Assembly: GCF_000518985.1 (NCBI RefSeq)
Contig: NZ_JAEQ01000025.1
Location: 1 to 58,187 of the forward strand
From: Chelativorans sp. J32
Lineage (GTDB): Bacteria; Pseudomonadota; Alphaproteobacteria; Rhizobiales; Rhizobiaceae
Reading direction: 5' to 3'
Length of the DNA stretch: 58,187 bases
In this document: positions 34,165 through 41,752 of the stretch, piece by piece
Numbering within the stretch: position 1 is the stretch's first letter
Layout of the letters: each line of letters starts with the position of its first letter
Notes under the pieces: model-generated
The model's input: only the letters and a program-made list of their open reading frames with translations
Told to the model about the DNA's origin: nothing
Databases searched by the model: none
Translations under genes and position numbers: made by a program

Positions 34165-35574
34165 TCAGACCGAATAGTACATGTCGAATTCGACCGGGTG
34201 CGGCGTCATCTCGAAGCGCAGCACTTCGGCCATCTTCAGCTCGATATAGGAGTCGATCTGATCGTCGTCGAAGACGCCGCCGGCCTTCAGGAAGCCGCGA
34301 TCCTTGTCGAGGCTCATGAGGGCCTCGCGCAGTGATCCGCAGACGGTCGGGACCTTCTTGAGTTCCTTCGGCGGCAGGTCGTAGAGATCCTTGTCCATCG
34401 CCTGGCCCGGATGGATCTTGTTCTTGATCCCGTCGATGCCGGCCATCAGGAGGGCTGCGAAGCACAGATAGGGATTGGCCGTGGGATCAGGGAAACGGAC
34501 CTCGACGCGCTTCGACTTGGGCGAGGTGCCAAAGGGAATGCGACACGAAGCGGAGCGATTGCGCGCAGAATAGGCGAGCAAGACCGGCGCTTCAAAGCCT
34601 GGCACCAAGCGCTTGTAGGAGTTCGTCGTCGGGTTGGTGAAGGCGTTGATCGCCTTGGCATGCTTGATGATGCCGCCGATGTAGTAAAGGCAAGTCTCGG
34701 AGAGGCCGGCATACTCGTTGCCGGCGAAGGTGGGCTTGCCTTCCTTCCAGATCGACTGATGCACGTGCATGCCCGAGCCATTGTCGCCATAGATGGGCTT
34801 CGGCATGAATGTTGCCGTCTTGCCATAGGCATTGGCGACCTGATGCACGACATACTTGTAGATCTGCATCTTGTCGGCGTTGCGCACCAGGGTGTCGAAC
34901 TTGATGCCAAGCTCGTGCTGGGCTGCGGCGACCTCGTGATGGTGCTTTTCTACCCTGACGCCCATCTCCGTGAGGACCGAGAGCATCTCGGAACGCATGT
35001 CCTGCAGCGAGTCGATCGGCGGGACGGGGAAGTAGCCGCCCTTCACGCGTGGCCGGTGACCGAGATTGCCGGTCTCGTAATCGGTGTCGTCGTTGGACGG
35101 AAGCTCGGAGGAATCCAGCTTGAAGCCGGTGTTGTAGGGATCGGCTTTGTACTTCACGTCGTCGAAAATAAAGAACTCGGCCTCAGGTCCCACATAGACG
35201 GTATCGCCAATGCCTTCCGCCCGCAAATAGGCCTCTGCCTTCTTGGCGATGCCCCGAGGATCGCGGTTGTAGGCTTCGCCGGAAACCGGGTCCAGGATGT
35301 CGCACAGGATGACCATCGTGGACTGGGCGAAGAAGGGATCCATGTGAGCCGATTCGGTATCCGGCATCAGGACCATGTCGGACTCGTTGATGGCCTTCCA
35401 GCCGGCAATCGAGGAACCGTCGAACATGACGCCGTCGGCGAACATGTCCTCGTCCACCTCGGCGACGTCCATCGTCACGTGCTGGAGCTTGCCCTTCGGG
35501 TCCGTAAAGCGCAGGTCAACGAACTTAACATCGCTGTCCTTGATCTGCTTCAGGATGTCCTGTGCTGTCGTCAT
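34165..35574 (-). CDS. glnA: type I glutamine synthetase
   Basis: Makes glutamine from glutamate, ammonia and ATP; main ammonia-assimilation enzyme. 469 residues, with the GS signatures [18 protein letters not shown], the ATP-binding [14 protein letters not shown] and the adenylylation-site Tyr in [10 protein letters not shown] near residue 400, showing control by GlnE. Start ATG 35574. It follows glnB by 55 bases and is presumably co-transcribed from the glnB promoter, possibly with its own promoter in the gap. Confidence 0.95.
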
Positions 35575-35612
35575 TCTCTTCAACCCCTGTAAGTGAGAAC
35601 TCTTCTTGCAAT

Positions 35613-35628
35613 TCGGCCGTGCGGCCGG
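35613..35628 (-). other. GC hairpin between glnB and glnA
   Basis: CGGCCG TG CGGCCG forms a short strong stem at the end of glnB, followed by no U-run. It may attenuate or stabilise the glnB-glnA transcript. Confidence 0.4.
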
Positions 35629-35629
35629 T

Positions 35630-36172
<543 letters not shown>

Positions 36173-37766: not shown

Positions 37767-37852
37767 GCATTGGGCATCCCGCGCGGAGCAGCAGAGATCA
37801 TCATAAACGATATGTCGGTGTTAGCTCTAGGTAAACGATGGTTACAACTTGT

Positions 37853-37870
37853 CGCCAGCGTTCGCTGGCG
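37853..37870. promoter_or_regulatory. perfect palindrome upstream of the amine oxidase
   Basis: CGCCAGCG TT CGCTGGCG: a perfect eight-base inverted repeat with a two-base centre, 60 bases before the chosen start of the amine oxidase gene and 87 bases after nnr. No U-run follows, so it is better read as an operator or a leader hairpin than as a terminator. Function not established. Confidence 0.4.
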
Positions 37871-37930
37871 GATAAACAGGAGTATGCATACCTTCGCGCC
37901 TCGGAAGAATCTGCCGAGCGAGGAGAGTGG

Positions 37931-39532
37931 ATGCAGCGTAACCAAGGATATCTCAGCTTAAGCCGGCGCAATCTCTTATCTCTGGTGGGGATCACAGCCG
38001 GTAGCGCTGCCATGTATCAAGCCATGGTGACGCTGGGGCTGGCCGCCGAGTCGAGCTACAAGGGACCGATCCAGCTCGAAGGCGATCCCAAAGGCACGTC
38101 CGTCTTGATCCTGGGTGCCGGATTGGCCGGCATGACGGCTGCGCTCGAAATGCGCCAAGCCGGGTATAAGGTTCAAATACTGGAATATAACGATCGTGCC
38201 GGTGGCCGAAACTGGACCATACGGGGCGGCGATATCATTACGGAAATGGGCGGAGCCACACAGGAATGCCGTTTCGCCGAAGGGCTGTATTTCAATCCTG
38301 GCCCATGGAGGATCCCATACCATCATTATGGACTGCTCGCCTATTGCAAGCGCTTGGGCGTGCAACTCGAGGCATTTCAGCAGCTCAACTACAATGCCTT
38401 CCTCCACTCCAGCACCGCATTTGGCGGAAAGCCGCAGCGCATTCGAGACATCATCACGGACTTTCGCGGCCACGTATCTGAGCTTCTGGCCAAGGTGACC
38501 AATAGAGGGCAACTCGAAGGCGAGGTCACCAAAGAGGACCAGGAGATGCTGCTTGAGGCGCTTCGCTCCTGGGGCGCGCTCGATAAGGATTACGCTTATA
38601 AAGAGAGCCTCCACACGAGCGACTTCCGCGGTTACTCGAAACTGCCCGGCGGTGGTCCAGGAGGGGCTCCGCTGCCCTCGAAACCCATCGCTCTTTCCGA
38701 CATCCTCACCTCGCGTCTCTGGGCCAGCCTGGCCAATTTCACCCTTTTTGAATATCAAACGACGATGTTCCAGCCGGTCGGCGGCATCGACATGATCGGC
38801 AAGGCTTTTGCCCGAGAAGTGGGTGACCTGATCACCTATAATGCCAAGGTCACCAAGATCGAACAGAACGACAGTGGCGTAACGGCCTATTATGAGGACA
38901 CGAAGAAGCCTGGCGTGGTGCGAAAGGCCAGTGCTGATTGGTGCATCTGCACCATTCCTCTCCCAATCCTGAGCCAGATCGACATCAATGTCAGTGCCCG
39001 CATGCGGGCAGCGATCCAAGCCGTCCCATATCTGTCATCCGTGAAGGTAGGACTGCAGTTCAAACGTCGTTTCTGGGAAGAGGACGACCACATCTTCGGC
39101 GGTGTTAGCTATACCGACCTGCCCATTTCCGAGATTTCCTATCCCAGCAGCCGTTTCAACACCACCGGCAAAGGCGTCCTCTTGGGCTGTTATACCTGGA
39201 ATGGAACGCATTCCTACGAATTCACGGCCATGCCCCCGGAAGAGAGGGTCAGGAAGGCGGTCGAATATGGCGCCCAAATTCATCCTCAGTACAGGGACGA
39301 GTTCGAAAATGGCGTTTCGTGGGCCTGGCACCGCTCCCCTTTTACCCTCGGTTGTGCCGCCGACTGGTCGGAGGAAGCGCGCAAGCAATATTACGACGAC
39401 CTTTGCCAGATCGATGGGCGCATCGTGCTCGCGGGCGAGCACGCGTCATATATCCCCGCATGGATGGAGGGAGCGATATTGTCGTCGCTGGATGCGGTCA
39501 GACGATTACATCAACGCGTGGTGGGAGGCTGA
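37931..39532 (+). CDS. Tat-exported flavin amine oxidase/dehydrogenase (monoamine oxidase family)
   Basis: 533 residues from ATG 37931, which has AGGAGA just upstream. A twin-arginine signal (LSRRNLLSLVG, residues 10-20) precedes the FAD domain: GAGLAG at 62-67, then EYNDRAGGRN. The C terminus has GRIVLAGEHASYIPAWMEGA, the FAD-binding signature of flavin amine oxidases. Export folded, with FAD bound, is implied. A c-type cytochrome gene starts five bases after its stop, as in the nicotine-oxidising NicA2/CycN pair. The substrate (amine or amino acid) is not readable. Confidence 0.86.
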   Translation: MQRNQGYLSLSRRNLLSLVGITAGSAAMYQAMVTLGLAAESSYKGPIQLEGDPKGTSVLILGAGLAGMTAALEMRQAGYKVQILEYNDRAGGRNWTIRGGDIITEMGGATQECRFAEGLYFNPGPWRIPYHHYGLLAYCKRLGVQLEAFQQLNYNAFLHSSTAFGGKPQRIRDIITDFRGHVSELLAKVTNRGQLEGEVTKEDQEMLLEALRSWGALDKDYAYKESLHTSDFRGYSKLPGGGPGGAPLPSKPIALSDILTSRLWASLANFTLFEYQTTMFQPVGGIDMIGKAFAREVGDLITYNAKVTKIEQNDSGVTAYYEDTKKPGVVRKASADWCICTIPLPILSQIDINVSARMRAAIQAVPYLSSVKVGLQFKRRFWEEDDHIFGGVSYTDLPISEISYPSSRFNTTGKGVLLGCYTWNGTHSYEFTAMPPEERVRKAVEYGAQIHPQYRDEFENGVSWAWHRSPFTLGCAADWSEEARKQYYDDLCQIDGRIVLAGEHASYIPAWMEGAILSSLDAVRRLHQRVVGG

Positions 39533-39536
39533 TGCC

Positions 39537-39986
39537 ATGAAGGTTCAGACATCTCCATCGCTTTCACGAAAAAGTGCGGCGGCATTGTTCAGGCAGACAG
39601 GAATCTTCGCTCTTGTCTGGGCACTCGCGACCATATTCACGCTGAAGCATGCATCCGCCGATTCGGCCGGCGTCACGCTCGGTGACGACAAGTTCACGCA
39701 GCAGACCGGGGAAGCGCTTTACGCCAATGTCTGCGCGGCATGTCACATGAGCGACGGGCAGGGGGCGGTGGGGGCAGGGCGCTACCCTGCGCTCGCCAAG
39801 AATGAACGATTGGAAGCCGGGGATTACCCCGTCTATGTCGTTCTCCACGGACTTGCCGGTATGCCCCCATTCGCAGACATGATGAGCGACGAACAGGTGG
39901 CGGCGGTCGTCAATTATGTGCGCACACATTTCGGCAACAATTACACCGACCTGGTCACTGCGGAGGAAGTGGCGGGCAGCCGGTAG
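39537..39986 (+). CDS. c-type cytochrome, partner of the flavin amine oxidase
   Basis: 149 residues. One N-terminal hydrophobic segment (about 20-40), then a single haem site CAACH at 66-70 and an axial Met in LAGMPPF (residue 109). The C terminus, SDEQVAAVVNYVRTHFG, is the last helix of class I cytochromes c. GGGAGG precedes ATG 39537. The tight spacing indicates co-translation with the amine oxidase, and it is the likely electron acceptor. Confidence 0.88.
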   Translation: MKVQTSPSLSRKSAAALFRQTGIFALVWALATIFTLKHASADSAGVTLGDDKFTQQTGEALYANVCAACHMSDGQGAVGAGRYPALAKNERLEAGDYPVYVVLHGLAGMPPFADMMSDEQVAAVVNYVRTHFGNNYTDLVTAEEVAGSR

Positions 39987-40211
39987 AATCATTGCCGAGG
40001 ACACGACAGGGCGTCGCCACGGTGCCGGTCGCAAATCCCGTCAATTTCAGGCGTCAATGGGAATCTGGCTTATCGAGCCGGACGCCTTACGTTGAAGCGG
40101 CTGAGGAAATTCCAGATTCCCTTTCGAGCTTGGCCGCCCGGCACGGAGCCGTTCTCCGTAGGCCATCTGAAATTAATGCGATTATGCGTCCTTCAATATC
40201 CGGTTTTCCGG

Positions 40212-40240
40212 TTGACCCGATGCGAGCACCTCACTATGTT
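40212..40240 (+). promoter_or_regulatory. sigma-70-type promoter of tRNA-Lys
   Basis: TTGACC and TATGTT separated by 17 bases, ending 36 bases before the mature tRNA 5' end. Confidence 0.6.
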
Positions 40241-40276
40241 CCGCCGCAATTCGCGGGCGGCATTTCAGCCTCGTGC

Positions 40277-40352
40277 GAGCGCGTAGCTCAGCCGGTAGAG
40301 CAACTGACTTTTAATCAGTAGGTCCAGGGTTCGAATCCCTGCGCGCTCACCA
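40277..40352 (+). tRNA. tRNA-Lys (anticodon TTT)
   Basis: Complete cloverleaf: acceptor GAGCGCG/CGCGCTC, D arm GCTC...GAGC, anticodon arm ACTGA-CTTTTAA-TCAGT with anticodon TTT, T arm CAGGG-TTCGAAT-CCCTG, discriminator A and encoded CCA at 40350-40352. The variable loop is AGGTC. Confidence 0.97.
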
Positions 40353-40609
40353 CCTCTGTGGTTTTGAAAGATAAGCAGAACTTTCGATATCCCAGACTGG
40401 AGTATGCGGAGAGAATCTGTTCGCGTATGACTGGAAGAAAGTTGCACGAACAATGGTGCAGCCGACAGCCATGCCCAATCAGCGTTTTCGTTCCGCACGG
40501 TCTTAGATGCAAACCACGCTGCCGCCTAAAACTTGATTAGCCGCCGATTGACCATTCGTCCCTCACGCTGCACGCTGCTGGCGGGCACGAGCAGATGAGG
40601 GCTCGGAAA

Positions 40610-40783
40610 ATGGATGGTATGGTCTACGAAGCGTTGATTGATCTGAAGAAATCAGTCGATCGGCAGAATGAGCTTTCGGATGAGACCAACAATCTCTTAC
40701 GAGCGCTGATCTCCACTTTGCAGGATACCGGCCAGGCCGCCGCCGATCTGGCCGAAGTCATGCGCGAAGACGACGACGACTGA
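40610..40783 (+). CDS. possible small protein, coiled-coil-like (57 aa)
   Basis: ATG 40610 follows GAGG by nine bases. The product is a single predicted amphipathic helix (VYEALIDLKKSVDRQNELSD onward) with an acidic tail MREDDDD. No relatives are recognised. It could be real or chance; the helical periodicity and ribosome site favour a real gene. Confidence 0.4.
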   Translation: MDGMVYEALIDLKKSVDRQNELSDETNNLLRALISTLQDTGQAAADLAEVMREDDDD

Positions 40784-41014
40784 AGATCAGCCAACGCCTT
40801 TGCTTCACCTCCAAAGCGGGCGGCAATAGAAGCTATGCCTTTCGGTAAGCTTCCGAGTGCGTAGTCAGGCACGGTGATCGCGGGACATGCCAGATCTCGT
40901 TAGAAGCATCACAGCATCCGGCCAACTCCCCGGGCTGCGGCGCAATGCCACGAGATGGTGATTGGAGCTTCTCCGGGCTCGCCGCTATATCGGGTGGCGG
41001 GAAAGGGTGAGCAA

Positions 41015-41752
41015 ATGGCAATTGACATCGGATACACGAGCGCACTGGTTGCGGGGGCATTGTCATTCCTTTCCCCATGCGTGCTTCCGCTGGTCCCGCC
41101 TTATCTCTGCTACATGGCTGGCGTCACCGTCGACGATTTTCGTCGCCCGGAGGGTGGTGGAACCGCCCGTCTTTCGCTCATCAAGGCAGCCTTGGCCTTC
41201 GTGCTGGGTTTCTCGACCGTTTTCGTGGCCCTCGGGGCAGGCGCGTCAACGATCGGTGGTCTCCTGCGTGCCTGGCAACAGGAACTCGCCATCGTAGCAG
41301 GCATCGTCATCATTCTGATGGGGCTCAACTTCCTTGGCATCATCCGCATACCGCTGCTTTCGCGGGAGGCGCGGCTGCAGGCGGAAGCCAAGCCCGCCAA
41401 TATAGGCGCCGCGTATTTGATGGGGTTGGCTTTTGCATTCGGTTGGACCCCCTGCATCGGACCGGTGCTTGGACCCATCCTCACTCTGGCGGGGGGGCGT
41501 GAGACGGTAGGGGAGGGCGCGCTGATGCTTGCGGTCTATTCTGCCGGGTTGGGCATCCCCTTTCTTCTCGCCGCCTTGTTCTCCGATGCTTTCATGCGGT
41601 TCCTGCAGCGGTTCCGAATGCATCTGGGGCAGGTGGAAAAGGCGATTGGCGGACTTCTCGTGCTCGCCGGCGTGCTGTTCCTCACAGGCGGGATGCAGAG
41701 CATGGCATTCTGGCTGCTCGAAACCTTCCCGTCGCTGGGCACTCTTGGCTGA
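41015..41752 (+). CDS. ccdA: cytochrome c biogenesis protein CcdA (DsbD core)
   Basis: 245 residues with six membrane helices. The two redox Cys are in LSPCVLPLVPP (helix 1) and GWTPCIGPVLG (helix 4). CcdA passes reducing power from thioredoxin to the periplasm for c-type cytochrome maturation. Start ATG 41015. It could serve the cytochrome c 1 kb upstream, as well as the respiratory ones. Confidence 0.92.
   Translation: MAIDIGYTSALVAGALSFLSPCVLPLVPPYLCYMAGVTVDDFRRPEGGGTARLSLIKAALAFVLGFSTVFVALGAGASTIGGLLRAWQQELAIVAGIVIILMGLNFLGIIRIPLLSREARLQAEAKPANIGAAYLMGLAFAFGWTPCIGPVLGPILTLAGGRETVGEGALMLAVYSAGLGIPFLLAALFSDAFMRFLQRFRMHLGQVEKAIGGLLVLAGVLFLTGGMQSMAFWLLETFPSLGTLG

Follow-up and report, generated by a model that had tools for sequence, protein, structure and literature searches.

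In Chelativorans sp. J32, a two-gene cluster most probably encodes a periplasmic L-amino-acid:cytochrome c oxidoreductase, i.e., a dehydrogenase of the lao-cccA-ridA type, a reading to which we assign a probability of about 80%. The cluster comprises a gene for a flavoenzyme related to L-amino acid oxidases (LAAO), predicted to be exported, and, immediately downstream, a gene for a cytochrome c; it is located in the window, a term used here for the complete stretch of 58,187 nt analyzed from contig NZ_JAEQ01000025.1. The operon type itself has been published and is little studied; new here are the clade-wide pairing of enzyme and cytochrome, a placement in the LAAO branch that is apparently not covered by the published survey of NicA2-related enzymes, and a tryptophan residue, W126.

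The flavoenzyme, its cytochrome and the active site

The first gene (37931..39532, plus strand) starts with an ATG at position 37931 that is preceded by a ribosome-binding-like GAGGAG (37920-37925, plus strand), and its stop codon ends at 39532. It encodes a Tat-type FAD-containing L-amino-acid oxidoreductase of 533 residues, assigned on the basis of PF01593 and its match to solved structures, that begins with MQRNQGYLSLSRRNLLSLVG and matches the Pfam Amino_oxidase domain (PF01593, 3.8e-58) at residues 65-526. A twin-arginine signal region containing SRRNLL (SRRNLLSLVG) is predicted by eye for about residues 1-38 (37931..38044, plus strand). R12 and R13 are invariant in all 37 rows of alignment A2, while in alignment A1 R13 is present in 30/30 rows and R12 in at least 90%, locus L042 featuring KR. 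The dinucleotide (FAD) binding motif GAGLAG is found at residues 62-67 (38114..38131, plus strand), with G62, G64 and G67 invariant in 30 rows, and the combination of an Amino_oxidase domain with a GxGxxG FAD motif places the enzyme in the flavin amine oxidoreductase superfamily. Both the Tat signal LSRRNLLSLVG and the amine-oxidase FAD domain named in the original prediction are thus present.

The second gene (39537..39986, plus strand) starts with an ATG at 39537 and is separated from the first by 4 bases (39533-39536), one less than originally reported; its ribosome-binding-like GGGAGG (39523..39528, plus strand) is located within the end of the oxidoreductase gene. The product, predicted to be periplasmic, is a mono-heme class I cytochrome c of 149 residues (PF13442, Cytochrome_CBB3, 6e-15; PF00034, 1.2e-11) with a putative Sec-type signal peptide ending in A-S-A before D42 (39537..39659, plus strand), in which no lipobox was seen; this signal was read by eye. 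The heme attachment motif CAACH (residues 66-70; 39732..39746, plus strand) and the axial methionine M109 within MPPF (39861..39863, plus strand) occur as predicted and agree with the family rows, C66, C69, H70, M109 and P110 being invariant in 135/135 cytochrome sequences, some of which are repeats of one genome. A promoter scan returned one promoter-like site (40212-40240) ahead of a tRNA gene, with 1.4 expected, and a terminator scan returned none.

The best solved relative of the flavoenzyme is the LAAO from Rhodococcus opacus (PDB 2jae, E 1.7e-86); among the best 60 of 104 structure matches, the next ranks are taken by LAAOs of ancestral-vertebrate, snake-type and other origin. Of the best 26 structure sequences retrieved with the C-terminal half, 25 carried the names of L-amino-acid, L-glutamate or L-lysine oxidases, the remaining one (5ts5) is named only "Amine oxidase", and the next match was 8i6i (E 4.2e-5). 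With the R. opacus enzyme, the window enzyme shares the domain, 36.7% identity over 469 residues and the aligned catalytic residues. R127 (38309..38311, plus strand) corresponds to R. opacus Arg84, which we take to be the substrate-carboxylate arginine, and is present in 140/140 aligned rows; Y421 (39191..39193, plus strand) corresponds to Tyr371, presumably the carboxylate-binding tyrosine, and is Y in 135, F in 4 and a gap in 1 of the 140 rows. W511 is kept in 139/140 rows. The kinship to solved LAAOs and the retention of the carboxylate-binding arginine and tyrosine assign the enzyme to the LAAO branch. An L-amino acid is the most likely substrate; as the carboxylate-binding pair is conserved, a plain amine is far less probable. 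The originally predicted periplasmic dehydrogenase feeding respiration is supported. The position of R. opacus Trp426 in the pocket is variable among relatives (residues including A, F, Y, S and W; A476 in the window enzyme), so that side-chain preference probably differs between family members.

NicA2 had originally been put forward as the family precedent. Indeed, the NicA2/Pnao-CycN system of Pseudomonas putida S16 likewise combines a Tat flavoenzyme with an adjacent Sec cytochrome and an expected electron transfer from FADH2 to cytochrome c, and this common layout is what would favor a NicA2-type nicotine or amine dehydrogenase in the window. However, the window enzyme falls into the LAAO branch and carries the amino-acid clamp, no nicotine enzyme by name occurs among the best 60 structure matches with either the full-length or the C-terminal half query, and 7khn, which we take to be NicA2, matches the C-terminal half with E 0.071. 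We therefore regard a nicotine or amine dehydrogenase as extremely improbable and treat NicA2 as an analogy of mechanism rather than as demonstrated kin, the closest solved relatives being LAAOs.

The enzyme also retains K372 (39044..39046, plus strand; 140/140 aligned rows), a lysine near the flavin N5 that is typical of the superfamily. It is presumably equivalent to Lys340, for which such a role is described in PMC12224317. The equivalent lysine helps the reaction with O2 in true oxidases, yet it is present in nearly all published dehydrogenases as well and is consequently indecisive in the question of oxidase versus dehydrogenase.

Pairing with cytochrome c among relatives

In the taxonomic family of the window, 23 of 297 genomes gave homologs at E 1e-60, in its order 8 of 397 at 1e-60 and in its phylum 27 of 398 at 1e-40, each count including the genome of the window; further homologs were collected from named genome contigs and from 35 plasmid records. 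The enzyme family is common: relatives are encoded in at least 582 genome-contig stretches (tblastn, E no higher than 1e-3), of which the best 80 were included. Downstream of the enzyme, a homologous cytochrome gene of the same orientation is present at 122 of 125 loci with at least 50% identity (the window locus and some repeated genomes among them) and at 3/3 loci with 41-50% identity. The original prediction was to fall if homologs usually lacked the cytochrome; the opposite holds at 41% identity and above (125 of 128 loci), where the figures count loci and not independent events, since several genome-contig loci repeat genomes from other searches. The three exceptions, all at 50% or above, are a truncated enzyme (L025), a cytochrome located upstream (L058) and a locus with no recognizable cytochrome downstream (L097). 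Below 41% identity, cytochrome matches occurred in 2/10 loci, both weak or partial and both to di-heme proteins.

When the query was an unpaired member, a class-level search returned 19 loci, four of them repeats of earlier ones (L174, L182, L183 and L187). Nine feature the cytochrome and share at least 40.8% identity with the window enzyme, and ten, with at most 40.1% identity, do not; among the 19, L192 has a flank of only 896 bases, and at L174 a CAACH lies 972 bases downstream and has no match to the cytochrome profile. Among the 14 plasmid regions fetched of the 35 records, twelve carry an annotated cytochrome c adjoining the enzyme, located after it in ten and before it in two, both Deinococcus plasmids, and two regions do not. 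The pairing of enzyme and cytochrome is far beyond chance. On a quick tree, for which thinning at 78% identity retained 77 of 152 rows (with seven loci excluded before alignment, labels of the di-heme rows and of L058 assigned by hand, the deepest forks unresolved and a long reference row), the pairing labels changed 4 times versus a shuffled mean of 17.0, a value as low being reached in 0/200 shuffles; the three di-heme rows group together in a single clade. A further comparison set consisted of 12 of the 14 fetched plasmid regions (35 records), without seven loci and exact repeats. With LAAOs as its closest solved relatives, the window enzyme apparently lies outside the published survey of NicA2-related enzymes.

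In that survey (PMC12224317), a Tat signal together with an adjacent cytochrome predicts cytochrome-using dehydrogenases among NicA2-related enzymes, and the rate constants with cytochrome c are 1e4-1e6 per M per s for clades 2 and 3. Its enzyme set was gathered via NicA2 BLAST, and the term "L-amino acid" has 0 occurrences in the main text. The window pair, as read by eye, exhibits both features of the rule, the Tat signal and the adjacent cytochrome with a Sec signal.

These observations bear on the question whether the enzyme could be a true periplasmic oxidase that passes electrons from FADH2 to O2 with formation of H2O2, the cytochrome serving in peroxide handling or general respiration. 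The nearest solved relative, R. opacus LAAO, is an oxidase by name, which also speaks against the dehydrogenase reading as such; it has T at the position of W126 and W at that of A476. K372 is kept, and relatives without an adjacent cytochrome exist that also carry twin-arginine starts. On the other hand, the pairing above 41% identity is near-complete, the cytochrome is a mono-heme His/Met protein and not a di-heme peroxidase, terminal oxidase genes adjoin the pair on two plasmids, and the published rule predicts a dehydrogenase (PMC12224317), so that a true oxidase appears very unlikely. Also to be weighed against a dehydrogenase is that clade 1 enzymes in the same survey reacted only slowly with their cytochromes. 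Among the literature matches listed, neither kinetics nor measured cytochrome coupling was found for the LAAO branch.

For a periplasmic dehydrogenase, signals and genome content suggest that the flavoenzyme would fold with FAD in the cytoplasm and then be exported via Tat, and that the cytochrome would be exported via Sec and receive its heme from the Ccm system; the host genome encodes TatC and CcmH, making export and heme attachment possible. In the periplasm, the enzyme would bind an L-amino acid via R127 and Y421 and transfer a hydride to FAD, and the imino acid formed would, in keeping with the chemistry of the family, be hydrolyzed to a 2-oxo acid and ammonia. Gene context together with the NicA2 precedent suggests that FADH2 would be reoxidized not by O2 but by the neighboring cytochrome, two molecules of which would take up one electron each, and that the cytochrome would in turn supply a cytochrome c oxidase. 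For the window pair, we infer both electron acceptor and substrate from sequence. If the paired enzymes are dehydrogenases, no peroxide would be made and external amino acids would be respired, and expectations about the scavenging of nitrogen, the supply of auxin and redox stress would change.

Terminal oxidase genes adjoin the pair in 2 of 170 loci scanned, many with flanks of only 1.5 kb, and both loci are located on Rhodobacterales plasmids. In Dinoroseobacter shibae, coxB, ctaD, a gene for a hypothetical protein and an oxidase assembly gene are directly followed by the enzyme-cytochrome c pair, and in Roseinatronobacter sp. S2 the order is ctaD, a hypothetical gene, cytochrome c, enzyme and cytochrome c. 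The blocks at L195 (270-7003) and L199 (424-7005), where the pair stands in line with genes for terminal cytochrome c oxidase, possibly represent a whole chain from amino acid to oxygen. At L041, L045 and L199, an additional multi-heme cytochrome, with open frames between 432 and 494 aa long, is encoded directly upstream of the enzyme; with the protein from Roseinatronobacter, those at L045 and L041 share 72% and 43% identity, respectively, and they perhaps form a membrane electron route.

Among 125 loci whose flank was long enough, 83 carry a gene of the RidA family downstream of the pair, an assignment for which two sequences were checked against Pfam, and 42, the window included, lack it there. 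The six RidA seed sequences all start with a signal-like stretch. At identities below 41%, RidA often directly follows the enzyme or a di-heme cytochrome (L049, L050, L052, L054-L057, L060). The core module thus likely consists of an exported LAAO and an imine deaminase, which in one large group are joined by a cytochrome as the third component. In L050, L052 and L054, which form a separate clade, the enzyme is followed by a protein with two CxxCH motifs and by RidA, i.e., by a second, different cytochrome partner. In the window, no ridA was found near the pair (39987-40960), and nothing in the host genome closely matches the RidA of the relatives (best E 1.7e-4), although the RidA family as a whole is represented by 15 matches. 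As the window copy is devoid of a RidA-type imine deaminase, the imine would presumably hydrolyze spontaneously.

An unpaired relative is encoded on the Metabacillus plasmid pBY2G20 (L203, 3950-7213), where it is followed by Rid, tatA and tatC and seems to bring its own translocon. It resembles the window enzyme in its twin-arginine start and LAAO family membership (42.4% identity in local alignment, 40.2% by tblastn) and differs from it in the lack of an annotated cytochrome beside the enzyme and an A at the position of W126. A metallo-beta-lactamase gene lies about 2 kb upstream.

Tryptophan 126

W126 (38306..38308, plus strand), directly before R127, is the sole column that separates paired from unpaired relatives without exception: all 62 paired rows have W there, while each of the 21 unpaired or di-heme rows has A or G. 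The count excludes 80 genome-contig loci, because these had been fetched with patterns one of which contains W126. From its position next to R127, the residue would be expected close to the flavin. All paired enzymes may share one origin, and W126 may therefore reflect a single ancestral event.

A more far-reaching proposal, which we put forward tentatively and would sooner expect to fail than to hold, is that the LAAO branch constitutes an ancient lineage of its own of cytochrome-c-coupled L-amino-acid dehydrogenases, separate from the NicA2-related clades, in which the invariant W126 acts as the switch by closing the flavin to O2 and/or relaying electrons to the heme. If so, hundreds of genes named oxidases would encode respiratory dehydrogenases, and the 5% auxin output cited for cytochrome c maturation mutants of Gluconacetobacter would be explained. 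If the paired enzymes are dehydrogenases, W126 with a cytochrome versus A or G without one would provide a clean natural contrast for the question of O2 reactivity; what sets this reactivity in the superfamily is described as open in PMC12224317.

Published cluster, genomic setting and possible role

The closest described counterpart is lao-cccA-ridA of Gluconacetobacter diazotrophicus PAL5 (GDI2456-GDI2454), which encodes a Tat LAAO of 533 residues (PMC5053998). As the cluster is already published, the original suggestion that the system may be new is weak. Among the literature matches listed, we recognized no other description of this operon; GDI2456 is also mentioned in PMC6981854. In both clusters, a 533-residue Tat flavoenzyme resembling R. 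opacus LAAO is accompanied by an adjacent cytochrome c, while the window differs by lacking ridA as third gene; their putative orthology rests on enzyme length, gene order, the Tat signal and this resemblance to the R. opacus enzyme, compared by description. In G. diazotrophicus, lao Tn5 mutants fed with tryptophan lost indole-3-acetic acid (IAA), lao being needed for auxin formation from tryptophan, and ccm mutants cited in the same article formed IAA at 5% of the wild type level, while the role of the cccA cytochrome is presented as a hypothesis only (PMC5053998). Taken together, PMC5053998 and PMC12224317 support the cytochrome-coupled mechanism.

The mutant phenotypes (PMC5053998) also favor a dedicated auxin enzyme with the conversion of tryptophan to indole-3-pyruvate as its main job, as proposed for G. 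diazotrophicus, and related pairs occur on plasmids of nodule isolates, e.g., pRtrCIAT899b of R. tropici CIAT 899 and in R. gallicum. However, no indolepyruvate decarboxylase was found among 8 typed of 15 matches to thiamine-diphosphate enzymes in the host genome (E up to 1e-80), plasmid-borne relatives also stem from seawater, an alkaline spring and Deinococcus, and the variable Trp426 position suggests varied substrates, so that we consider this specialization unlikely. An unusual carboxylated amine encountered near plants (an opine, a rhizopine-like compound or an N-methyl amino acid) instead of a protein amino acid would accord with the patchy distribution in the family (23/297 genomes), with the plasmids of nodule isolates and with the variable side-chain pocket, but the typed neighbors of the window pair are housekeeping genes and relatives originate from many habitats, which makes such a substrate quite unlikely. 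For an L-amino-acid dehydrogenase, the likely role is to draw on external amino acids for energy and nitrogen, and aromatic oxo acids may serve as precursors of auxin. Such pairs are common and often carry the name "oxidase", which is probably wrong; 22 of the 35 plasmid records annotate the match as "flavin monoamine oxidase family protein."

In the window, the pair is located between nnrDE and a block of tRNA-Lys, a CcdA-like gene and glmU (37767-40954). None of nine nnrDE loci from the same genus carries the enzyme or the cytochrome beside nnrDE. Three of them (L154, L156 and L157) show the order nnrDE, tRNA-Lys and CcdA-like gene, relative to which the tRNA-Lys segment of the window is inverted; in the other six, the CcdA-like gene is not present within the 1.5-kb flank, where L153 has a tRNA-Thr. 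Among the five genomes listed for the genus, that of the window included, two encode the enzyme, and the other copy is only 62% identical. The absence from sibling nnrDE loci, the inverted tRNA and this distribution point to horizontal acquisition of the pair with rearrangement, i.e., a small insertion and an inversion. The host genome encodes no second close copy of the enzyme, the next best match having E 5.7e-6, and the cytochrome has only one other match, a weak one (E 2.6e-4).

The CcdA/DsbD-like gene (40955-41752), of a cytochrome c biogenesis type, was considered as a part of the pair and rejected; it is an old neighbor, since the order nnrDE, tRNA-Lys and CcdA-like gene occurs without the pair in the three sibling loci. 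Divergent from and beside nnrDE, genes for glutamine synthetase and a P-II (glnB-like) protein are located on the minus strand (34165-36085); the proximity of an ammonia-releasing enzyme to nitrogen-control genes is probably a coincidence.
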